Position numbers and translations under genes: made by a program
The notes under the pieces: model-generated
The model's database searches: none
What the model was told of the DNA's origin: nothing
What the model saw: only the letters and a program-made list of their open reading frames with translations
Virus record (IMG/VR): IMGVR_UViG_3300037336_000152
Location: 1-59,133 of that record
DNA: 59,133 nt
Reading direction: 5' to 3' (one strand)
Origin: a virus
In this document: positions 1-59,133 of the stretch, one piece after another
Layout: the number at the start of each line of letters is the position of its first letter
How positions within the stretch are numbered: position 1 is the stretch's first letter

Positions 1-20
1 CTATCTTTTATGGATGCCAT
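1..20 (-). CDS. 5' end of membrane/coiled-coil cargo gene (partial, cut by window edge)
   Basis: Read leftward, these bases give Met-Ala-Ser-Ile-Lys-Asp, the same first codons as the complete gene ending at 56526 and starting at 57278. The rest lies outside the window. It shows that immunity region 1 is flanked by the same cargo gene as region 2. Confidence 0.6.
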
Positions 21-142
21 TTAGGCCTTTCAAGTTCGCCTGCGCGCCATTCTGGCTTACCCACTACAATCGCCCGCCACCACTCGCCCAGGCTGGTAGG
101 CGATGCGGCCGACAAAGATCGCCCCCCCCATCAATCGCCGCG
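1..142. repeat. Direct repeat A, left copy
   Basis: The stretch matches 57259-57397 base for base except for one homopolymer: eight C here against five in the right copy. Homology stops abruptly after the shared cgccgcg at 136-142. Together with repeat B it brackets the two alternative immunity regions. Confidence 0.9.
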
Positions 143-42776: not shown

Positions 42777-43769
42777 TCAATCCAGCCGGCCTGCAATATC
42801 CTCTGCGCTTGCGTTGTAGTATGTCATTAACTGTTTGATATCTCTATGCCCGACCATGCGCGCCAGGTCCAGCACATCAAGTTTTCTCGCCAGCCTGGTA
42901 ATCGCTTCGTGGCGCGTATCGTGGAACGTCAAGCCTTCAATGGTCGTTCGATTGTCCCTCGCCTTGCGAAACAAGGCGTCGAGCGATGACGACGACAGGC
43001 CGAACAGGTAGGCGGACTCTGGCAGCAGGCCTATAAGTTCCCGCGCGCGAGTGGAAAGCGCCACGGCGCGGCTCGTCCCGTTTTTCGTGTCGCGCAGAAT
43101 CGCGGTCCGGCCGATGATGTCGCCCGGGAGAAGGTTGCAAATCTCACCGGCGCGCATTGCTGTCTCGATAGCGAAAAGGAAAGCTACGGCTACAGCCTGC
43201 ATTTTTGTCCGCGCTGGCCCGCCGTCGAACCCGAGCGCCTCGCAAATCTGCGCCGCCTCTGCATCGCTGATGCGCCGGTCCCGCGCTTTGGACACTCCGG
43301 GTCGCCTCGTGTCGGTCGTCGGGCTGGTCGCAATCCAGCGCCATTCGCGCCTAGCGGTGGAAAATACGTGTGACAGCAGGTTCATATCGCGCACGATCGT
43401 CGACCCGCTTACCACCTTCAGTCGGGAATCACGCCAGGCGCCCAGCACCTCCGGCGTGACCGCGCACAGGCGCAAGCTCCCCAATCTCCCCAATTTCCCC
43501 ACCTCGTGATTCGCCAGGGCGAGAATTCTCCGCTGCTCTGCCGCCGACGTTTTTTTGTGCGCAGATACCTCAGTGGCGTAGCGATCGAACGCGTCCTGCA
43601 TTGTCTTGTCAGTATTTACGCCAGTTTCGACCATGCGCCGCAGTTCGGTTTCCCGCGCTGCTGCCCAAGACTGAGCCTCCGCTTTCGTTGAAACGGTTGT
43701 CGAATCGCGCACGCCGCGCACGTAGACCTGGGCTCGCCAGCCGGATTTTTGTTTTGTGATGGATGCCAT
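42777..43769 (-). CDS. int: Tyrosine-type integrase
   Basis: 330 residues. Catalytic set: R206 (AMRAGEI), K229 (DTKNGTS), H283-x2-R286 (FHDTRHE), H308 (GHRD) and a tyrosine at 317/318 (TYYNAS). The N-terminal arm- and core-binding domains are complete. It opposes the late genes, with the attachment core 120 bp before its start. No clear Shine-Dalgarno is visible. Confidence 0.95.
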   Translation of the reverse strand: MASITKQKSGWRAQVYVRGVRDSTTVSTKAEAQSWAAARETELRRMVETGVNTDKTMQDAFDRYATEVSAHKKTSAAEQRRILALANHEVGKLGRLGSLRLCAVTPEVLGAWRDSRLKVVSGSTIVRDMNLLSHVFSTARREWRWIATSPTTDTRRPGVSKARDRRISDAEAAQICEALGFDGGPARTKMQAVAVAFLFAIETAMRAGEICNLLPGDIIGRTAILRDTKNGTSRAVALSTRARELIGLLPESAYLFGLSSSSLDALFRKARDNRTTIEGLTFHDTRHEAITRLARKLDVLDLARMVGHRDIKQLMTYYNASAEDIAGRLD

Positions 43770-43969: not shown

Positions 43970-44230
43970 CTAGTTTTTTTCACGAAACTTTTTGGTCCAT
44001 TCCACAACCTCTATGGCATTGTACAGCGGTCTTGCGCGGCCCTGAGATGGCAGGCGAATTGCTTTTGGGAATGATGTTAGGCAGGTCAACGTATTCTGCA
44101 CATAACTCGAACTGCGCCGCAAATATTTGGCCACGTCCGACAAATCCCAGAGTTGATCAGAAAACGGAACGACCGGCCCGCCAAGTTTTTCGATCAGCGC
44201 ATCAAATCTGTCCAAAAGCTCATCTGTCAT
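43970..44230 (-). CDS. Excisionase/AlpA-like winged-helix protein
   Basis: 86 residues from the ATG at 44230 (AAGGGG upstream). LWDLSDVAKYLRRSSSYVQNTL and YNAIEVVEWTKKF match the MerR-like HTH of excisionases: one helix-turn-helix plus a C-terminal helix following the wing. Position next to the attachment core supports a Xis role. Confidence 0.75.
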   Translation of the reverse strand: MTDELLDRFDALIEKLGGPVVPFSDQLWDLSDVAKYLRRSSSYVQNTLTCLTSFPKAIRLPSQGRARPLYNAIEVVEWTKKFREKN

Positions 44231-44732
44231 TTTCAATCCCCTTCGCGGCAATAGCCGCATCATCCGTCCCGACCAGCACTCGGCGTACAGCGCGTGCCCG
44301 GCCACCCTCGTACGACGTGCGGTCGTTGTCCTGGCCGCCACCGTCGAAATCCTGACTCCACGCGCGAGAAGTGTCGGCTGCGTACTGCTCTCTGGACCAA
44401 TAAAGCGTCGCATCGAACTTGTTCTTCAAGTTCGCGTACAGCAGCGCCTGCTCTGATCTGGTTGGCAGGTCACCGCCGATACTGGCCACCCATTCGACAG
44501 CCTTGTCCCACTGGATGTCGCGGGCCTGATCGCTCATGAGGATCAAGTGGTACGAGGGGGCGCCAGTCTCGCTGAGCACAATGCCTGCATAATGCTCGCC
44601 GGAATTGATCTCGATCTCTACGCGGGGGATGGCGAAGATGCGCGGTATCGTCGCCTCATAGGCTGCGATCATGTTTGCAAGCTGCTCCTGCGCGGCTTTG
44701 ATCGCGTCAAGTGTGATGATGGTGGTGGTCAT
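44220..44732 (-). CDS. DUF1566 lectin-fold protein A (possible retroelement target)
   Basis: 170 residues. The N-terminal ~50 residues are helical; then come GIVLSETGAPSYHLIL and a DUF1566/C-type-lectin-like domain (WDKAVEWVASIGGDLPTRSEQALLY, YWSREQYAAD, SYEGGRARAVRRV). The end of the domain is a variable surface in proteins diversified by retroelements. Its core differs from paralog B only at first and second codon positions. It stands at the far end of the leftward operon and overlaps the Xis gene. Ligand unknown. Confidence 0.8.
   Translation of the reverse strand: MTTTIITLDAIKAAQEQLANMIAAYEATIPRIFAIPRVEIEINSGEHYAGIVLSETGAPSYHLILMSDQARDIQWDKAVEWVASIGGDLPTRSEQALLYANLKNKFDATLYWSREQYAADTSRAWSQDFDGGGQDNDRTSYEGGRARAVRRVLVGTDDAAIAAKGIENDR
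44316..44375 (-). repeat. Putative variable region A
   Basis: 20 codons aligned without gaps to 44806-44865. 15 bases differ, none at third codon positions, and 12 codons change the amino acid. Flanking codons share CAGTACGCAGCC on one side and TCGTACGAGGG on the other. Confidence 0.7.
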
Positions 44733-44760
44733 AGTGACTCCGATAGGAATTGATGAATGA

Positions 44761-45363
44761 TTAAATTGCTAATCTGCGGACAGCGCGCGCCCGGCCCTCG
44801 TACGACCTGTGGCCGTCGTCCTGGTAGCCATCGTTGAAACCCTGATACCACGCGTAAGAAGGGCCGGCTGCGTACTGCGTGGATGACCAGTGCCAGACCG
44901 GATCGATGGACTCTGCCTTGCCGTCCTTGAATGCCTCCACGCTCGTCTGGCCGGGCAAGGCTTCGGTGTAGGGGTAGCCGACTGGCGCGCTGCTCGGGTT
45001 GTCGCCGTCGCGGAAAGACTCGTAGTTCTCTTGGCCGGTCGGCTTGAGGTTTCGATACATCAGCTCGAGCTCGTCGCGGCTAGGGATGTACCAGTCGGTG
45101 TGACCTTCGATGTCGAGACCGCGCGCCCACTCGGCAAGGTCGCTGCCGGCCTCGGCCATGGCGGTAGTGTTCTGCATGCCATCGGAGTAGCTCTGTGCTC
45201 CTGGCAGGGTCTTGGTGCCCGCATTCCAGGGGGCCTTGTGTTCGCCGGCAGCCTTTGGGGAAACGATCAGCGCGAAGGTTCCGCCATCGACATTGATCAG
45301 GCCAGCGAAGAAGCCGCCGGCGAACGCGGCGCCGATGGTTGTGGGAAGTTTTGGTTGGTTCAT
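44761..45363 (-). CDS. DUF1566 lectin-fold protein B (possible retroelement target)
   Basis: 200 residues. ATIGAAFAGGFFAGLI-like TTIGAAFAGGFFAGLIN opens a domain with LDIEGHTDWYIPSRDELELMYRNL, then HWSSTQYAAGPSYAWYQGF and SYEGRARAVRRL at the very C-terminus. This is the full-length DUF1566 form; protein A lacks part of it. The start overlaps the upstream methyltransferase stop by ATGA. Proteins of this family occur in phage left operons and are known targets of diversity-generating retroelements. Confidence 0.85.
   Translation of the reverse strand: MNQPKLPTTIGAAFAGGFFAGLINVDGGTFALIVSPKAAGEHKAPWNAGTKTLPGAQSYSDGMQNTTAMAEAGSDLAEWARGLDIEGHTDWYIPSRDELELMYRNLKPTGQENYESFRDGDNPSSAPVGYPYTEALPGQTSVEAFKDGKAESIDPVWHWSSTQYAAGPSYAWYQGFNDGYQDDGHRSYEGRARAVRRLAI
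44806..44865 (-). repeat. Putative variable region B
   Basis: Counterpart of 44316-44375. Variable codons end in C or T (TAC/CGC, TAT/AGT, AAC/GAC, TAC/GGC), as expected if both came from AAC/AAT codons of a template by adenine mutagenesis. The next, GC-rich codons differ only at third positions. Confidence 0.7.
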
Positions 45364-46150: not shown

Positions 46151-46287
46151 GGTTTTGCTTTCTGTGTAGTGGCGAGAGCGGCTGCGGTATGCAGTGCGGC
46201 GTTAAAACCTTGCGAGTACAGTCCGCAGTCACCCCCCGCATGAGGGTTGGCCCATTTCAGCGCCATAATTAGTTCTGAGGGTTTCAT
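46147..46287 (-). CDS. Small coupled protein
   Basis: 46 residues (MKPSELIMALKWANPHAGGDC...). GAGG before the ATG and ATGA overlaps on both sides make translation likely. Resembles small phage proteins with a GDCGLYSQGFN-type centre; no known function. Confidence 0.6.
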   Translation of the reverse strand: MKPSELIMALKWANPHAGGDCGLYSQGFNAALHTAAALATTQKAKP

Positions 46288-47324
46288 TTCAATTCCTCTG
46301 GTTTTTTAGTAGCGAGTGCTTCCACGATCTTTTCAGCGAGTGCGCCAGCGCCCAGATTGTGATTGCCATCGACTGAGCGGATTATGTTTGCGAGCCAATC
46401 AACATCAGGCACAGCCAAGCCGTCAGGAATACCCGGCTGCGATGCGATAGACTCAAATGTAAGCTCGCTACCAAGAGCTTGCATCGCAATACCTTGAATA
46501 TGCTGGATGATAGAGGTCGGGTCAATCTGCTCGCATCCAATCGGATCACCATCTGGTGAGATATGCTCGATGAAGAAGCCGTTTTCTCCATACGATGGGA
46601 TTTCGCGCAGAATCTTGCGCAACGCTTCCTCTGCCACCGGCTGCGCTTGCACTTGCGCGGCAGGGGTGCTCATTTCACCAACCCTCTGTGGCACAACATC
46701 AAACCAGTGCTCGATGATGTTGCACAAGCCCTGGTACTGCCAGCCGATCTTGCTGTCGCCGTGCTTGCGAATCACGGCTGCGCGAAACTCGTCTACAGAG
46801 CCACGGAAACAGCCGCGAGTAACTTCTACTCCTGTCTTGGTGCGATACGCCGTTAGTGTGTCGCTGTCAGAACCAACACACGAGTACCACTGAATGCTGG
46901 TGCGTGTTTCGACCCGCGCATCGCCGTAGACCTGTGCATCGCCGTAGACCTGTGCATCGCCGTAGACCTGTGCATCGCCGTAGACCTGTGCATTGCCGGA
47001 TACCTGCGCATTGCCGTAGACCAGTGCATTGCTGGATACCCACGCATCGCCGTAGACCCGTGCATTGCTGGATACCCACGCATTGCCGTAGACCAGTGCA
47101 TTGCCGTAGACCCGTGCATTGCCGTAGACCCGTGCATTGCCGTAGACCCGTGCATTGCCGTAGACCCACGCATTGCCCTCATGACTCAAGCATGTCTCAG
47201 ACTCTACATAACCCCCAAGCTCCCCCGCCGCAATTAAACTAAAATCCACGAGCGCCCGAATACGGTACAGCGTATGGCCTTCGAATTGTTTTGTGTCAGT
47301 CTGGATGAGTTCGTATTTTTTCAT
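46284..47324 (-). CDS. NAxVYG-repeat beta-solenoid protein
   Basis: 346 residues from the ATG at 47324. Residues 1-50 lead in (LIAAGELGGYVESETCLS); then about 17 hexads of the form (V/A)YGNA(R/Q/W)V, with SSNA and YGDA variants, to ~residue 155. This is expected to fold as a left-handed beta-helix. A small domain (VEVTRGCFRGSVDEFRAAV) and a helical C-terminal part follow. The repeat is near-identical in DNA, so copy number may change. Function unknown. Confidence 0.8.
   Translation of the reverse strand: MKKYELIQTDTKQFEGHTLYRIRALVDFSLIAAGELGGYVESETCLSHEGNAWVYGNARVYGNARVYGNARVYGNALVYGNAWVSSNARVYGDAWVSSNALVYGNAQVSGNAQVYGDAQVYGDAQVYGDAQVYGDARVETRTSIQWYSCVGSDSDTLTAYRTKTGVEVTRGCFRGSVDEFRAAVIRKHGDSKIGWQYQGLCNIIEHWFDVVPQRVGEMSTPAAQVQAQPVAEEALRKILREIPSYGENGFFIEHISPDGDPIGCEQIDPTSIIQHIQGIAMQALGSELTFESIASQPGIPDGLAVPDVDWLANIIRSVDGNHNLGAGALAEKIVEALATKKPEELK
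46912..47175 (-). repeat. 18-bp tandem repeat array in the solenoid gene
   Basis: Units like tgcattgccgtagacccg recur every 18 bp, alternating cgtagacc with ctggatacc. Each encodes one solenoid hexad. Confidence 0.85.
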
Positions 47325-47872
47325 TTTGTGCTTTCGGCAGAGACAACTTGCGCAGTAGTGCCGGGCGCGGCTGGCAATGGCATCCAGTGGGTAACATTTC
47401 CGGTGTCGATCAAGTCGCAGAGGAACGTCGTGCAACGTGGGACCAGGTGCGAGATAACGACCCATGACTTCCCTGGGTAGCCAGGATGGGTAGGAGTTGC
47501 TACGGGGCCTGCAAACCTCGAAACCAATACAACTTCATCTGGCAGCGGCAACCGATCATCTACGCTGATCCATGCGCTCTGCTCGGAGGCTGCGCGAGTG
47601 AGCGCGGCGCAAGTAGCGTTAAGGCGATTGGCCGCATCGCGCCAAACTTGCTGATGCTCGTTAGCAGCCCATACCGCACCTTCGTGGCCGTGCAGCGCCA
47701 TGTAAAACTGCTCGCCAGTGATTGCGCGATCAGCGGCCTGCGCAGCCATCACGCGCTCGCCGTGGGCGGTGGCGTAGGCGTGCATGTCGTCTGCATCAAA
47801 CCAGCGTCCGTAGTCCTGAAAATCAGGCTCGGGAAGCGGCGCAAGATCTACGACTGGGGTGGCGGCGCTCAT
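47321..47872 (-). CDS. DUF551-domain protein
   Basis: 183 residues. The C-terminal ~70 residues (WISVDDRLPLPDEVVLVSRF...VTHWMPLPAAP) are the DUF551 module frequent in prophage left operons. The N-terminal half is helical (GEQFYMALHG, ANEHQQVWRDAANRL). Overlaps both neighbours. Function unknown. Confidence 0.85.
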   Translation of the reverse strand: MSAATPVVDLAPLPEPDFQDYGRWFDADDMHAYATAHGERVMAAQAADRAITGEQFYMALHGHEGAVWAANEHQQVWRDAANRLNATCAALTRAASEQSAWISVDDRLPLPDEVVLVSRFAGPVATPTHPGYPGKSWVVISHLVPRCTTFLCDLIDTGNVTHWMPLPAAPGTTAQVVSAESTK

Positions 47873-48375
47873 GCTGCACGCTCACATGTGGCGCTGATCA
47901 ACGTGTATCCGCTGCTGCGCTTGACCGATTCAACATCAACACGTTTATCTGCCTCGCACTGCTGTCGAGTGGTGGCCTGGTAGCGAATCTCGACAATATC
48001 GGCCTGTGGCGTTTTGAGGCGAATTACGAGTTCGTGCGCGACGGGAGCGGCGTGCGCGGCAGTGGCGAGGAAAAGCGAGGCGATCAGAATGATTTTGGCC
48101 ATGATTGGATCCATGCGGTTCGGTTTGGAAACCGACGCACTAAAGTCCAATTTAGGGCGGCGGCCTGGCAGGATTGGACTACCGGAAACCGCATGCGCGA
48201 ACCGGCGAGCCGTGAGGCTCTCCCACCAGGCCGCCATAGGAGGGGCTGGAAATGAAAAAGCTACGACGTGAGCGTAGCTATATGCCACGCGGTTTATCAG
48301 GAGTCCAATCCTGGCCGCGTTTTTCTCCGCGGCAGAGAAATCATGCGCCTGGAATGCGTTATTGTCAAGATTCAT
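47869..48375 (-). CDS. Small exported protein with long upstream extension
   Basis: From the ATG at 48102 the product is 77 residues with a signal peptide (MAKIILIASLFLATAAHA) and a short periplasmic part. The frame stays open to an ATG at 48375 that has AGGAA upstream and overlaps the preceding stop, giving 168 residues. The extension contains AAWWESLTARRFAHAVSGSP, a string I associate with the phage Ash-type leader, and the DNA there folds (GAGCC-gtga-GGCTC). Possibly two products or a translated leader. Confidence 0.55.
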   Translation of the reverse strand: MNLDNNAFQAHDFSAAEKNAARIGLLINRVAYSYAHVVAFSFPAPPMAAWWESLTARRFAHAVSGSPILPGRRPKLDFSASVSKPNRMDPIMAKIILIASLFLATAAHAAPVAHELVIRLKTPQADIVEIRYQATTRQQCEADKRVDVESVKRSSGYTLISATCERAA

Positions 48376-52244: not shown

Positions 52245-52351
52245 GACATCACCCAGACGAAAATGTCGGCCGCAGTCTCTGCGAGCGCAATAATCACTAG
52301 AATTGCTACAGCGTTGCGAGCCGGATGGGCGCTGGTGAATGGGTCAATCAT
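52241..52351 (-). CDS. Small membrane peptide
   Basis: 36 residues with one hydrophobic segment ([21 protein letters not shown]). ATGA overlaps on both sides. Unknown function. Confidence 0.55.
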
Positions 52352-53199
52352 GCTGCGCTCGATGGTGAAAATGCATCGCGCATAGCGTCCAGCCACTCCT
52401 GAGACCATTGCAGAGCAAGCGCGGAAAACTGGCTAGTCTCTGGCGTATCGCCTCGACGGATGCCCAAGAAAAATCGCTCGGCTGGGCGTGAGCTATTTGG
52501 TTTGAGGCTCCCAAGATCGTTGACCGAAGCTTTGCGCGCCGTCGCGATTGTGCCAACCAGGCAGGAGCATTCGCCCGAGTAAGTCGAACCATCGACGCGT
52601 CCAGCTTTCAAGGCTTCGATCAGTGCCTGGACTTCATGCGGTGCCGATGAAAGAACAGCCCAAATGTCGTCACGGATCGGCAATAGCTCGGCATCGCGCA
52701 GATCGGCACCGCGCAGGTCGGCACCGCGCAGGTCGGTATTGCGCAGGTCGGCATCGCGCAGATCGGCACCGCGCAGGTCGGCACCGCGCAGGTCGGTATT
52801 GCGCAGGTCGGCATCGCTCAGGTCGGCACCGATCAGATCGGCACCGCTCAGGTCGGTATTGCGCAGGTCGGCACCGCTCAGGTCGGCATCGCGCAGGTCG
52901 GCACCGCTCAGGTTGGCACAGCTCAGATCGGCACCGCTCAGGTCGGCATCGCGCAGGTCGGCACCGCTCAGGTTGGCACAGCTCAGATCGGCACCGCTCA
53001 GGTCGGCATCGCGCAGGTCGGCACCGCTCAGGTCGGCACCGAGCAGATCGGCACCGCTCAGGTTGGCATCGCGCAGGTCGGCACCGCTCAGGTTGGCACC
53101 GCTCAGATCGGCACCGCTCAGGTTGGCCATGCTATTAGCCTCCGCGTCATGCGCAAACAGTGTTGCTCCGGTGTAGCGATGTTTGATTTCGATAATCAT
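52348..53199 (-). CDS. Pentapeptide-repeat protein
   Basis: 283 residues. About 29 pentapeptides of A(D/N)L(S/R)(G/D) type from ~residue 25 to 165, forming a right-handed quadrilateral beta-helix. The C-terminal ~115 residues hold [10 protein letters not shown] and [19 protein letters not shown], resembling a cap common in prophage pentapeptide proteins. The fold can mimic DNA, as in gyrase inhibitors; that role here is only a possibility. Confidence 0.88.
52680..53130 (-). repeat. 15-bp tandem repeat array in the pentapeptide gene
   Basis: Units such as gcaccgctcaggtcg recur every 15 bp with larger near-identical blocks of 60-75 bp, e.g. two blocks near 52.72 and 52.78 kb. Confidence 0.9.
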
Positions 53200-53207
53200 G
53201 TTCTCTC

Positions 53208-54224
53208 CTAGTTGTTGGATTCCACAAACTCACCAGCCGCGTCGAGCATGTACCAGGCGCCGGCCTTGATGCCGTTGTCGCCGACCTTGCTGGCGCGAAT
53301 GTGGATCAGTTCGTAGTTGTCATTGCGATACACGAGGATGATTGCCCCGCTTTCGCCGGCCATGGCGCGACCCATATAGCCAGAGGCCATGGCGACGGAA
53401 TCTCGCCCCGTGTTGCTGGCGGCGCTGCGGTCGCCCGTGTTGCTGGCGGCGCTGTAGTCGCCCGTGTTGCTGGCGGCGCTCTGGTCGCCCGTGTTGCTGG
53501 CGGCGCTGTGGTAGCCAGTGTTGCTGGCGGCGCTCTGGTAGCCAGTGTTGCTGGCGGCGCTGCGGTCGCCCGTGTTGCTGGCGGCGCTGCGGTAGCCAGT
53601 GTTGCTGGCGGCGCTGTAGTCGCCAGTGTTGCTGGCGGCGCTCTGGTAGCCAGTGTTGCTGGCGGCGCTGCGGTAGCCAGTGTTGCTGGCGGCGCTGTAG
53701 TCGCCAGTGTTGCTGGCGGCGCTGCGGTAGCCAGTGTTGCTGGCGGCGCTGTAGTCGCCAGTGTTGCTGGCGGCGCTCTGGTAGCCCGTGTTGCTGGCGG
53801 CGCTGCGGTAGCCAGTGTTGCTGGCGGCGCTGTAGTCGCCAGTGTTGCTGGCGGGGGATTCAGGGTCAACAGGCCCGCAACGGCTGATCGTGTATGCAAT
53901 AGCCGCTTTCACAAGGCCGGCAAAATTGATCTCAGCACTGACCGTCAGAGTTTGGCTTGCGACATTCGTGTCTTCGCCGTGGCGACTAAGTTGCCCGGAC
54001 TGCTCGACAGCGGCAAAATTGCTGCCAGCTGGTGGGTAGTAGTTGAAAATGTCGAGCGGATATTCGCAGGCATGAAAGCCGGATTTGCACGCATCCACAT
54101 CGCCATCGTGCGTGTACGTTTCGCCGACAGCGTATTGAAAATCGCGGCACTTCCAATGTTTGTCAAATCCCTTGTACGAAATTACCGTTTCCTCTGGCTT
54201 GCTTGCTGAAACCTTCTTGCTCAT
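53208..54224 (-). CDS. SAASNTG-repeat prophage protein (DUF7666-type)
   Basis: 338 residues. Residues 10-110 are a conserved module ([46 protein letters not shown]). 17-18 octads of (D/Y)xSAASNTG follow to ~residue 280, then a C-terminal cap ([24 protein letters not shown]). The octads should stack as a beta-roll. Very frequent in prophages, with no known function. Confidence 0.85.
53405..53850 (-). repeat. 24-bp tandem repeat array
   Basis: Units gtgttgctggcggcgctgtagtc.. repeat every 24 bp, nearly identical apart from two variable codons (TAC/CGC/CAG/CAC and GGC/GGG-type changes) per unit. Confidence 0.9.
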
Positions 54225-56525: not shown

Positions 56526-57278
56526 TCACTTCAGGGCTGGTGCTGGCGGTGTCGGCTGCGGCACAACTGGCTGAGACGAAGAAACTGCCGATGGCTGGAT
56601 GACAGGTACTGAATGATGGGAAGCCTTGTTGATGTAGGTTAGCAAGCCAACCGTCGCACCAATAATCGCAATCGCAATACCGAGACCCCATTTGATAAGG
56701 TCAGAAGTATTCTTGTGCATCTCCGTTTGCAACTTGGCCATTTCCGTACGCATTTCGGCGAAACCTACCCGCACGTCCGCAAATCCTGTTTTGATGCTTG
56801 CGTCGAAGTTGGCAAGGCGTGCGTCAATCTTCGCTTCCGAAGCAGCGATCTTTGCATCTACTTCCTGGCGGGTCAGATCAGTCATAGTTGCATCATTGGG
56901 CAGTTCTTCGTTATTGTCAACCACGGAGTGGGCGCGAATCGGCTTAGAGGTCGGCGCAGGGGCATCATCAACTGGAGGTGTTAGCGAGGCAAAGTCTTCG
57001 GCCAGCGCCATTATCTCGGCCAATCGCTTTGCGCCATCTTCGGTGGACGGGTTGGTGTCTTGCGCGGCCCGCTTGAATTCTTTCCTCGTTGTAATCCCTT
57101 CAAGCCCGAGTGCTCTCAGCCGCTCGCCAATGGTCGCGGCCATCGTGTTTTGCCGTCTGGCGTGCTGAATATAGGCCTCAAACCCCTCACCAGCCCGGTC
57201 AAGAGTTTCGGTTTTACTCGGCGCCGCCGCCTTTGTTGCTTGCGTCGACGGCTTGCGCCTATCTTTTATGGATGCCAT
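56526..57278 (-). CDS. Membrane-anchored coiled-coil cargo protein with tape-measure segment
   Basis: 250 residues. Basic disordered N-terminus; residues 52-104 (GLEGITTRKEFKRAAQD, EDGAKRLAEIMALAEDFASLTP) align with tape measure residues ~1327-1379. Then a Pro-rich linker, a coiled coil (~130-190, DARLANFDASIKTGFADVRVGF, resembling DUF1640/CCDC90-type proteins), one membrane segment (LIKWGLGIAIAIIGATVGLL, ~194-215), and a Ser/Pro tail. Monocistronic, next to the immunity region. Superinfection exclusion is inferred, not shown. Confidence 0.75.
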   Translation of the reverse strand: MASIKDRRKPSTQATKAAAPSKTETLDRAGEGFEAYIQHARRQNTMAATIGERLRALGLEGITTRKEFKRAAQDTNPSTEDGAKRLAEIMALAEDFASLTPPVDDAPAPTSKPIRAHSVVDNNEELPNDATMTDLTRQEVDAKIAASEAKIDARLANFDASIKTGFADVRVGFAEMRTEMAKLQTEMHKNTSDLIKWGLGIAIAIIGATVGLLTYINKASHHSVPVIQPSAVSSSQPVVPQPTPPAPALK

Positions 57279-57397
57279 TTAGGCCTTTCAAGTTCGCCTG
57301 CGCGCCATTCTGGCTTACCCACTACAATCGCCCGCCACCACTCGCCCAGGCTGGTAGGCGATGCGGCCGACAAAGATCGCCCCCATCAATCGCCGCG
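57259..57397. repeat. Direct repeat A, right copy
   Basis: Matches 1-142 apart from a three-base shorter C-run. Covers the start of the cargo gene and its upstream region. Confidence 0.9.
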
Positions 57398-57543
57398 GCC
57401 TGTTGTGGGTTGTAATTCACCTGTAAGTCCTTATTTCTACGCCATGAACGAGAATTTTCCGCATCGATGACCATGCTTTTTCGGAACACCACTTTGGGTT
57501 TTGGGGTGCAGCTGGCGTAGTCGGTGACGTCACCGTCACCCAT
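57322..57543 (-). CDS. Doubtful small ORF across repeat A
   Basis: 73 codons (MGDGDVTDYASC...). Its last ~25 codons lie in repeat A, where the C-run difference is a whole codon (one Gly), so the frame is kept in both copies. No ribosome site seen; may be chance. Confidence 0.25.
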   Translation of the reverse strand: MGDGDVTDYASCTPKPKVVFRKSMVIDAENSRSWRRNKDLQVNYNPQQAAAIDGGDLCRPHRLPAWASGGGRL

Positions 57544-57556
57544 GTGTCTACACTTC

Positions 57557-57916
57557 TCAGAATGCAAGTGCCTGAATTTTTGTAAATGTTTTAGCGTCAG
57601 TAGTGGCAAGCATCTTCTTTCCATCCTTCATTATCAGAATGAAAGTAACATCCTTGCCCCTGCCTCCGAGCAAAAGGCCCGCCAAAAGCCCAACAGGTCC
57701 GAGCAATACGCCGCCAGCAAGTCCCCATCCAACTGTGCCGCCAGTGCGCTTTACATCCTCCTCGGATGCGACGGATGCCGACTCAACCTGCCCAATAAGA
57801 GTGACGGTCTTCCCTATAAGTCCATCGCCAGGCTGCCATGCCAGCAAGATGACACTGGCAGATGCAGAGTGCCTACCCTTCGGGAAGTCGCCAGCATGTA
57901 TTTCAATTGTCGCCAT
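57557..57916 (-). CDS. Glycine-zipper membrane cargo protein
   Basis: 119 residues; GGAGG stands five bases before the ATG at 57916. Beta-rich first half; then WGLAGGVLLGPVGLLAGLLLGG, a glycine-zipper membrane hairpin, and DVTFILIMKDGKKMLATTDAKTFTKIQ. It occupies the place taken by the DUF4214 gene in region 1, behind the same promoter block. Function unknown; it could act at the membrane against other phages. Confidence 0.7.
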   Translation of the reverse strand: MATIEIHAGDFPKGRHSASASVILLAWQPGDGLIGKTVTLIGQVESASVASEEDVKRTGGTVGWGLAGGVLLGPVGLLAGLLLGGRGKDVTFILIMKDGKKMLATTDAKTFTKIQALAF

Positions 57917-57938
57917 ATATCCTCCACTCGGCATCATC

Positions 57939-58006
57939 GCGTGCCGTGTCGCCCATTGATTATACGCAAAAAAAAATGATGAAATCTAACCAATTGTTGC
58001 TATGTC
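57939..58006 (-). promoter_or_regulatory. Conserved cargo-gene promoter block, region 2
   Basis: Counterpart of 1252-1320; leftward -10 TATAAT at 57959-57964, 43 bp before the cargo start. Confidence 0.5.
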
Positions 58007-58083
58007 GCACATAGCCATGATGTGAGAATTTGTTAGTTTTAAAGCATCAAAGTAATCGTAAAAACGCTTATTGTTCTGCGCAT

Positions 58084-58099
58084 GTAGGAGTTGTCCTAC
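58084..58099. promoter_or_regulatory. Inverted repeat GTAGGA-N4-TCCTAC (site 2)
   Basis: Perfect arms, GTTG spacer; 40 bp before the small rightward gene, as at site 1. Confidence 0.6.
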
Positions 58100-58138
58100 T
58101 GGGTATAGTTGCCTTTTCAATCGTACCTGGAGTCATCA

Positions 58139-58375
58139 ATGCAAGATGTGCAGCAACTATTAAATCTTTATGAGCGTACCAATGAGATTGGCAGGGACTT
58201 TCTCATTGACCAGGCCAAGAAATGTGTGCGGGACTGGCCGGCGAATGTTGTGGCGACCCTACCCACCCTTAGACTCGTCCCGCCTCTGCCCGTCCGTACG
58301 CCGCATGGCCGACTCGACGCCATTGGAAATCATTCGTCGTGCCACCTCGTCGCCAAGACGCCATGCAATAAGTAA
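58139..58375 (+). CDS. Small protein convergent with the repressor (region 2)
   Basis: 78 residues; GGAG lies seven bases before the ATG. MQDVQQLLNLYERTNEIGRDF has the pattern of small prophage proteins that face the repressor gene, and the overall plan matches the region 1 gene. Its 3' end overlaps the repressor by 117 bp on the other strand. Confidence 0.55.
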   Translation: MQDVQQLLNLYERTNEIGRDFLIDQAKKCVRDWPANVVATLPTLRLVPPLPVRTPHGRLDAIGNHSSCHLVAKTPCNK

Positions 58376-58672
58376 TCGCAATTCATCCGTCGATCTGGCA
58401 CCGTCACTCAATAAGCTATTTGAGTCGCCATCATTGCTTTTTTCATGGTCTCGGTCCATCCATCCGACAGGCTTATCGCAACCATGTTCAAGCTTGCGCG
58501 CTAGGGCGTCACCTACGCCACGAACCGTTCCTGTAGACGACTGAGCGCCAGTCAATATTTGACTCAGGTACATGGGGGCCGTGAGCGCCCGCTTAGCCAC
58601 GTCGTCGGCGGTCTTAAATTCGGCCACCAGGGAGCGCAGGTTTTTCAGTCTCAATTCTTTTGATGTGGCCAT
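58259..58672 (-). CDS. CI-like phage repressor (short, XRE family), region 2
   Basis: 137 residues from the ATG at 58672; ATGs at 58690 and 58699 are alternatives. KELRLKNLRSLVAEFKTADDVAKRALTAPMYLSQILTG is the HTH, GVGDALARKLEHGCDKPVGWMDRDH the end of the DNA-binding domain. The C-terminal part (STDELRLLIAWRLGDEVARRMI) is helical. There is no peptidase domain. Unrelated in sequence to the region 1 repressor, hence different immunity. Its likely operators (AGCAAWTTGCT) occur at the region 2 cro promoter and at the left promoter. Confidence 0.82.
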   Translation of the reverse strand: MATSKELRLKNLRSLVAEFKTADDVAKRALTAPMYLSQILTGAQSSTGTVRGVGDALARKLEHGCDKPVGWMDRDHEKSNDGDSNSLLSDGARSTDELRLLIAWRLGDEVARRMISNGVESAMRRTDGQRRDESKGG

Positions 58673-58709
58673 GTCGATATTAAATAGCATTGCGCTCATT
58701 TGGAGAATG

Positions 58710-58750
58710 TGCAAATTGCTATTGCAAAACCAAAAGCAAATTGCTATAGT
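58710..58750 (+). promoter_or_regulatory. Right promoter with two operators, region 2
   Basis: -35 TTGCAA (58722-58727), 17-bp spacer, -10 TATAGT (58745-58750). Operators TGCAAATTGCT (58710-58720) and AGCAAATTGCT (58735-58745), again 25 bp apart. The cro ATG is at 58757, at the expected +1. Confidence 0.82.
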
Positions 58751-58756
58751 TGGTGC

Positions 58757-59056
58757 ATGAAACTTCTCAGATACGTCCAGACACACAGTACTCAGCGCGA
58801 ACTTGCCGTTAAGTTGGGCATTACACCGGTACTCATCAGCCAGTGGGCCAACGAATCAAGGCCAGTACCGCCAGAGCGATGCGTTGAGCTGGAGATGGCA
58901 ACTGACGGGATGGTTACTCGTCGTGATCTGCGCCCGGACGATTGGTTGCGCATCTGGCCAGAACTTCGTCCCACCCGCAAGCCATTAGCCAAAACCGTCA
59001 TGGAGACGGGAGTCGATCAGACTGACCCGAACTGCGTTGCACAAAACCCCAAATAA
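58757..59056 (+). CDS. Cro/YdaS-like regulator, region 2
   Basis: 99 residues. LLRYVQTHSTQRELAVKLGITPVLISQWANESRPVPPERCVELE is a textbook YdaS HTH. From residue ~75 the sequence joins that of the region 1 Cro (AKTVMETGVDQTDPNCV). No Shine-Dalgarno; the -10 ends six bases upstream, so a leaderless mRNA is expected. Confidence 0.85.
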   Translation: MKLLRYVQTHSTQRELAVKLGITPVLISQWANESRPVPPERCVELEMATDGMVTRRDLRPDDWLRIWPELRPTRKPLAKTVMETGVDQTDPNCVAQNPK

Positions 59057-59133
59057 CCAGGACGCCAAATTAACACCCGCATCACCCGAAGTCCTGAACC
59101 CACGAAAGCAAGCCATGAGCCTTGAAACCAAAC
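58976..59133. repeat. Direct repeat B, right copy
   Basis: Matches 2619-2776; truncated by the window end. Confidence 0.9.
59115..59133 (+). CDS. 5' end of early gene (partial, cut by window edge)
   Basis: Identical to the first codons of the gene at 2758 (Met-Ser-Leu-Glu-Thr-Lys). Confidence 0.55.

Follow-up and report, generated by a model that had tools for sequence, protein, structure and literature searches.

Can a phage carry the genes that a diversity-generating retroelement (DGR) diversifies without carrying the retroelement itself? The question is raised by two adjacent genes, VP2 and VP1, in a virus record of 59,133 nucleotides (IMG/VR IMGVR_UViG_3300037336_000152), which was analysed over its full length and is called here the window. 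Each gene has a tract (W2 in VP2, W1 in VP1) that the initial annotation, having found no reverse transcriptase (RT) in the window, nevertheless read as the target of adenine mutagenesis. The features under discussion are collected in Table 1.

Table 1. Coordinates of the features discussed, in window positions.
Feature	Position	Strand	Remarks
End overlap	1..126	+	Exact copy of 57259-57384
End overlap	59007..59133	+	Exact copy of 2650-2776
Tyrosine integrase	42777..43769	-	PF00589, phrog_1
Excisionase-like gene	43970..44230	-	phrog_4996; start overlaps VP1 stop
VP1, DUF1566/Lcl_C-like downstream target, 170 aa	44220..44732	-	Pfam PF07603, E=0.0016, below cut-off
W1 degenerate GC block	44278..44303	-	Motif lost (GTACGCCG); AT element replaced by coding tail
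Variable region of VP1 (W1)	44305..44387	-	W2-type block; adenine-only differences from template
W2 GC block, GTCCGCAG initiation motif and AT-rich downstream element, intact	44758..44793	-	
VP2, DUF1566/Lcl_C upstream target, 200 aa	44761..45363	-	Pfam PF07603, 41.1 bits, over cut-off
Variable region of VP2 (W2)	44795..44877	-	83-nt block common with W1; adenine-only differences from the L034/G367 template, codon 3 on

The pattern in the two tracts is largely as it was first described. The 20-codon cores (44316-44375 and 44806-44865, both on the minus strand) differ at exactly 15 nucleotides, all of them at codon position 1 or 2 and none at position 3, and 12 of the 20 codons are altered to give 12 amino-acid changes. 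The block common to W1 and W2 is longer than this core. It covers 83 nucleotides, from CAGTACGCAGCC to TCGTACGAGGG, with identical edges of 12 nucleotides on the 5' side (CAGTACGCAGCC) and 11 on the 3' side (TCGTACGAGGG); outside it, the identity between VP1 and VP2 is at background. One part of the description needs amendment. The GC-rich codons past the core were said to differ only at third positions; this does not hold for the tracts as first aligned, and holds only once W1, which has one extra codon past the core, is shifted by one codon. With this shift, the two tracts show three differences over some 24 nucleotides, after which divergence is complete. Two loose matches elsewhere (2731-2748 and 59088-59105) were rejected as further variable regions (VRs), being chance matches inside the repeated end segments.

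The tracts were compared with template repeats (TRs) from other genomes. From codon 3 onward, W1 differs from the L034/G367 TR at 14 of 26 adenines and at none of 37 other bases (P=3e-7), and W2 at 12 of 26 adenines and, again, at none of the 37 (P=4e-6). Between 12 and 14 of the 15 differences separating W1 from W2 fall on adenines in the TRs of other genomes (P 6e-6 to 1e-4), and for this reason the pattern is not chance; the remainder lie in codons 1 and 2 or in the last codons, at which the TRs differ from one another. Throughout the 83-nt block, no difference between W1 and W2 falls outside the adenine positions, as in working DGRs. Ordinary synonymous variation in these codons, which the initial annotation had set against its own proposal, was looked for in relatives, with the opposite result. 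The proposal that these are DGR targets is firm; the skeleton of non-adenine positions, the initiation site, the C-type-lectin family and the gene order all match complete DGRs of related phages. Thus, W1 and W2 are firmly supported as true VRs.

These relatives were found with a search pattern (GCGTGGNNYCNGNNYTTCNNCNNYGGCNNCCNG) in which only the non-adenine positions of the skeleton are fixed. In viral contigs it matched at least 119 stretches; most records held two to five copies, one copy being rich in AAC, and 43 of 50 skeleton-bearing virus records encode an RVT_1 RT. A stricter form of the pattern matched Janthinobacterium alone among the scanned species genomes, and it is in Janthinobacterium that the nearest relatives of the window VRs lie. 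Two matches (L009, L066) are chance, and three (L012, L018, L031), which belong to another target type, were left out of the count of orphans. Protein-pattern searches with VP1 alone or VP2 alone gave no relatives, where the skeleton DNA patterns succeeded. A close relative of the window phage was sought and not found, and none of the viral contigs yielded a VR or TR whose 5' flank matches that of the window exactly. A near-DNA search of phage records returned pentapeptide-repeat matches only, and no relatives of the targets. The window encodes a pentapeptide-repeat protein beside a DUF7666 protein (52348-53199 and 53208-54224), both genes having long internal DNA repeats; pentapeptide DNA like it is found in phages of Salmonella, Edwardsiella and Rheinheimera. 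One Janthinobacterium VR (L122:3221, minus strand) contains a differing, out-of-frame-looking stretch, TTCATTCTTCAGCC, possibly a failed or indel-bearing product of retrohoming.

The proteins themselves are of the expected kind. DUF1566 is the commonest annotated DGR target domain (PMC6642488). VP2 is 47-64% identical to 30 target proteins from related DGR loci, and its model (pLDDT 90) matches the C-terminal domain of Legionella Lcl (Z 12.7), with a weaker match to TvpA, a DGR protein (Z 6.2); in this predicted structure, its VR forms the C-terminus of a C-type-lectin-fold protein. VP1 matches VR-bearing target proteins by blastp with E values down to 4e-47. Upstream in the left operon lies a C4 antisense RNA (48153-48241, minus strand; RF01695, 60 bits), and 46284-47465 encodes a beta-solenoid protein of the YdcK type, whose gene has internal DNA repeats, now diverged, at about 46911-47177.

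The two VRs are not equivalent at their 3' ends. In the skeleton family, GTCCGCAG follows 193 of 222 distinct VRs, with an AT-rich element next; the flank reads GATT in VRs against GATC in TRs, and W2 follows the VR consensus. The initiation site is present at the end of W2 (GTCCGCAGATT...) and missing from W1, whose GTACGCCG is the sole such case among the 222. The Bordetella phage BPP-1, where the initiation site (IMH) and a downstream element are required (PMC3240598), resembles the window in its adenine mutagenesis, its IMH at the 3' end of the VR and its C-type-lectin target. It differs in having a complete DGR, a tail-tip target and a GC-rich hairpin with a GRNA loop; the 3' region of W2 shows a short AT-rich inverted repeat (GATTA-N6-TAATC) and no GC-rich stem of 7-10 bp with such a loop. 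By analogy, W2 would be a competent acceptor, and W1 probably would not.

What, then, has become of the machinery? The statement that the window holds no RT was borne out: the record has no RVT_1 match, and tblastn with the RT of L036 gave only noise. The Avd of L036 likewise gave noise only; the same searches gave strong scores in two relatives used as controls. Nor does the window hold a TR, there being no third repeat; only W1 and W2 match, and the next-best site fails at 24 of 57 fixed positions. In relatives, the order is a VP2-type target, a VP1-type target, Avd, TR and RT, and in L036 Avd (bAvd, PF22296), TR and RT (PF00078) are followed by a cytosine methylase. The early-operon DGRs of Janthinobacterium prophages (L122-L125, G367) and related IMG/VR phages have a skeleton and initiation motif like the window's, and the same order of VP2-type and then VP1-type targets. 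These carry Avd, TR and RT, of which the window has none, and the window has in addition lost the W1 site. In relatives the three elements come directly after the last target, and the equivalent place lies inside the window record. There the excisionase-like gene fills the slot; in L036 a similar gene sits downstream of the RT and methylase.

The record also appears to be complete. Its end overlaps, of 126 and 127 bp, read as what assembly at k=127 leaves of one body joined to itself through two alternative segments. These end segments (1-2776 and 57259-59133) each have their own, differing repressor and Cro-like gene. The structure of the assembly suggests a circular phage, some 56.4 or 57.3 kb long and present in the sample in two immunity versions, and genes for packaging, head, tail, lysis, integration and recombination are all in the record. 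A tandem of two prophages, considered as the source of the end repeats, is disfavoured, if not fully, by the exactness of the overlaps and by the lack of any break near the integrase; no tRNA marking an attachment site was found in the record. Because the record ends overlap the interior, which suggests a complete circular phage, the absence of Avd, TR and RT is probably real for the phage itself. What the window phage carries is DGR targets and not a DGR.

It is not alone in this. VRs without an RT occur in parallel in G332, G083, G028, G031, G047 and the phages Aurca01 and Medea1. Two of these are genomes (G332, 6.0 Mb, and G083, 2.6 Mb) with a window-type VR and no RVT_1 match at all; the virus records G028 and G047 have VRs followed by 9-15 kb downstream without an RT, and G031 by 4 kb. 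In G083 the VR-bearing target gene (L176:9556-10245) lies beside a serine recombinase. In G332 (L173/L175), the final 7.4 kb of the contig is a 99.9% repeat of an earlier prophage stretch, which is either a tandem prophage or an assembly overlap. Among cultured phages, protein search gave two of Pseudomonas syringae, Aurca01 and Medea1; both are complete, and both have a pair of adjacent DUF1566 genes and lack an RT. It also gave Cruim01, which shares its isolation strain with the RT-less Aurca01 and has both TR and RT. A skeleton search with the P. syringae-phage VR gave 12 viral records, with an RT in one (G825); two others end at the VR (L189 and L192, which end within 100 bp of it, carry no information on RT). 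The Medea1 target pair was not found in plasmid records.

The P. syringae phages permit a comparison of siblings. Their RT-less VRs differ from the Cruim01/G825 template at 11-18 of 29 adenines and at 0 or 1 of 37 other sites. When RT-less phages that are 96-99% identical beside the VR are paired, they differ from one another at 13-18 of the 29 template adenines and at 0-1 of the 37 other sites. For example, the first genes of Aurca01 and Medea1 are 99.1% identical over 450 bp upstream, and their VRs differ at 15 of 29 adenines against 0 of 37 others; the second genes of Medea1 and L197 have flanks 99.3% identical, and VRs that differ at 13 of 29 against 0 of 37. Comparable VR differences, with flanks at 96-98%, are seen in L190, L191, L194 and L199. 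Downstream, the second-gene group has a common RT-less junction, 97-99% identical over 630-700 bp. Therefore, these phages have the RT loss in common but not the VRs. In this group the last target has lost GTCCGCAG, as W1 has. Stasis also occurs, because L193, L196 and L198 have one identical VR haplotype.

To judge from these alignments, the targets of RT-less P. syringae phages are evidently not simply frozen; retrohoming supplied in trans by a helper, or recombination, must have acted to refresh them. That a VR without an IMH turns over speaks rather for recombination; the intact first target permits either route. The siblings suggest a mixed answer, in which the cis machinery is lost and the VRs nonetheless go on changing wherever there are RT-bearing relatives.

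For the window, we consider it likely that W1 and W2 are VRs left by a DGR, and that the phage has lost or exchanged the cis machinery (Avd, TR and RT), with W2 possibly still an acceptor. The sequence pattern shows that both VRs arose in an ancestor, where an adenine-rich template was copied by error-prone reverse transcription into the ends of two genes of the C-type-lectin fold. Gene order suggests that the Avd-TR-RT block after the last target later disappeared by deletion or exchange, the breakpoint lying at the 3' edge of the final VR; such a break would have cost W1 its initiation site and would have left VP1 running into the next gene. Against this reading stand the integrase, which is oriented differently in L036 and in the window, and the failure to find a TR with the window's 5' flank or a genome in which a VR lies remote from its TR. 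W2 could thereafter have taken new sequence from the Avd-TR-RT of a related prophage acting in trans, or have recombined with one.

How far this last step applies is where the readings part. The machinery may have been lost only recently, leaving both VRs as frozen alleles inherited like any gene; this is a serious possibility, if somewhat short of even. The loss of the W1 site, the VRs of G332 and G083 in genomes without any RT, and the haplotype identical in L193, L196 and L198 all fit it. Against it, the cis site is kept in W2, the VRs of RT-less P. syringae siblings do differ, and the 83-nt block has no non-adenine difference between W1 and W2, although a count of 0 in about 57 sites sets a limit on drift no tighter than about 5%. 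Alternatively, RT-less phages may receive their VRs by homologous recombination with RT-bearing siblings in co-infection rather than by retrohoming, which we hold rather doubtful. Here, the flanks are mosaic (L190 and L199 are 98% identical over 2.4 kb upstream, other pairs over only about 550 bp), Aurca01 is 100% identical to the RT-bearing G825 beside both VRs, and even the IMH-less target varies; the 450-bp flanks, however, are too alike to reveal crossovers. We regard it as unlikely that W2 is still being rewritten by mutagenic retrohoming, with RT and TR supplied in trans by the host or by a prophage resident in the same cell. It would suit the intact W2 site, the finding that avd, TR and brt supplied in trans work in BPP-1 (PMC3240598), and the turnover of VRs in RT-less P. 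syringae phages, where RT-bearing Cruim01 and RT-less Aurca01 were isolated on one strain. Yet no genome in samples of the Janthinobacterium family, genus and class had a VR distant from its matching TR, and variation in the IMH-less second target of the P. syringae phages is poorly explained by retrohoming. Diversification in trans and the relic, the two options of the initial annotation, both stand for the window phage.

Two other explanations would dispense with the loss altogether. The RT and TR might lie in the same phage beyond the record, which is linear and has no completeness estimate; this is improbable, given that the exact overlaps close both ends on the interior, and that the RT slot of relatives, right after the last target, lies inside. 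Or there may be no retroelement, only ordinary DUF1566 duplicates under positive selection, as adjacent paralogues with nonsynonymous differences only might suggest. Such genes would be expected to have a non-adenine skeleton free to differ in relatives, and the reverse is seen; the changes fall only at adenines of other genomes' TRs, and the edges of the block are the edges of the VR. Plain positive selection was rejected on the adenine-only register against the L034/G367 TR, and we give it almost no weight.

Targets without an RT have been described before. In Treponema denticola (PMC4891356) and in nanoarchaeal DGR fragments (PMC4372165) they were read as remnants or remote targets; these have the same adenine-directed VR changes without an RT, but are cellular genomes, with no comparison of RT-less VRs on common flanks in siblings. 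The Burkholderia phage Magia, described with a DGR of the window-target kind (PMC7883833), is, like the window, temperate, with DUF1566 targets downstream of recombination genes and an IMH-like site; unlike the window, it carries Avd and RT. Aurca01 and Medea1 share with the window two adjacent DUF1566 VRs, no RT, and a last target without GTCCGCAG, in complete phages, and differ in TR skeleton and host; the papers describing Aurca01/Cruim01 and Medea1 name no retroelement. In open papers, no report was found of recurrent RT-less phages with VRs that vary between siblings, and this pattern appears to be unreported. Because DGR surveys begin at the reverse transcriptase, targets without one nearby are missed, as Roux et al. 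noted for remote targets (PMC8144416).

It is a speculative thought, and one that we think will probably prove too strong, that temperate phages without an RT depend as a rule on a shared generator of diversity, their acceptor VRs being rewritten by the Avd-TR-RT of co-resident siblings, with target and mutator as separable, exchangeable modules. Whether the DGR of one phage diversifies the genes of another could be asked of Aurca01, Medea1, Cruim01 and G825, which form a ready-made set for comparison. Should live VRs prove common in RT-less phages, DGRs would reach further, and hypervariable phage proteins would be more numerous, than has been estimated.
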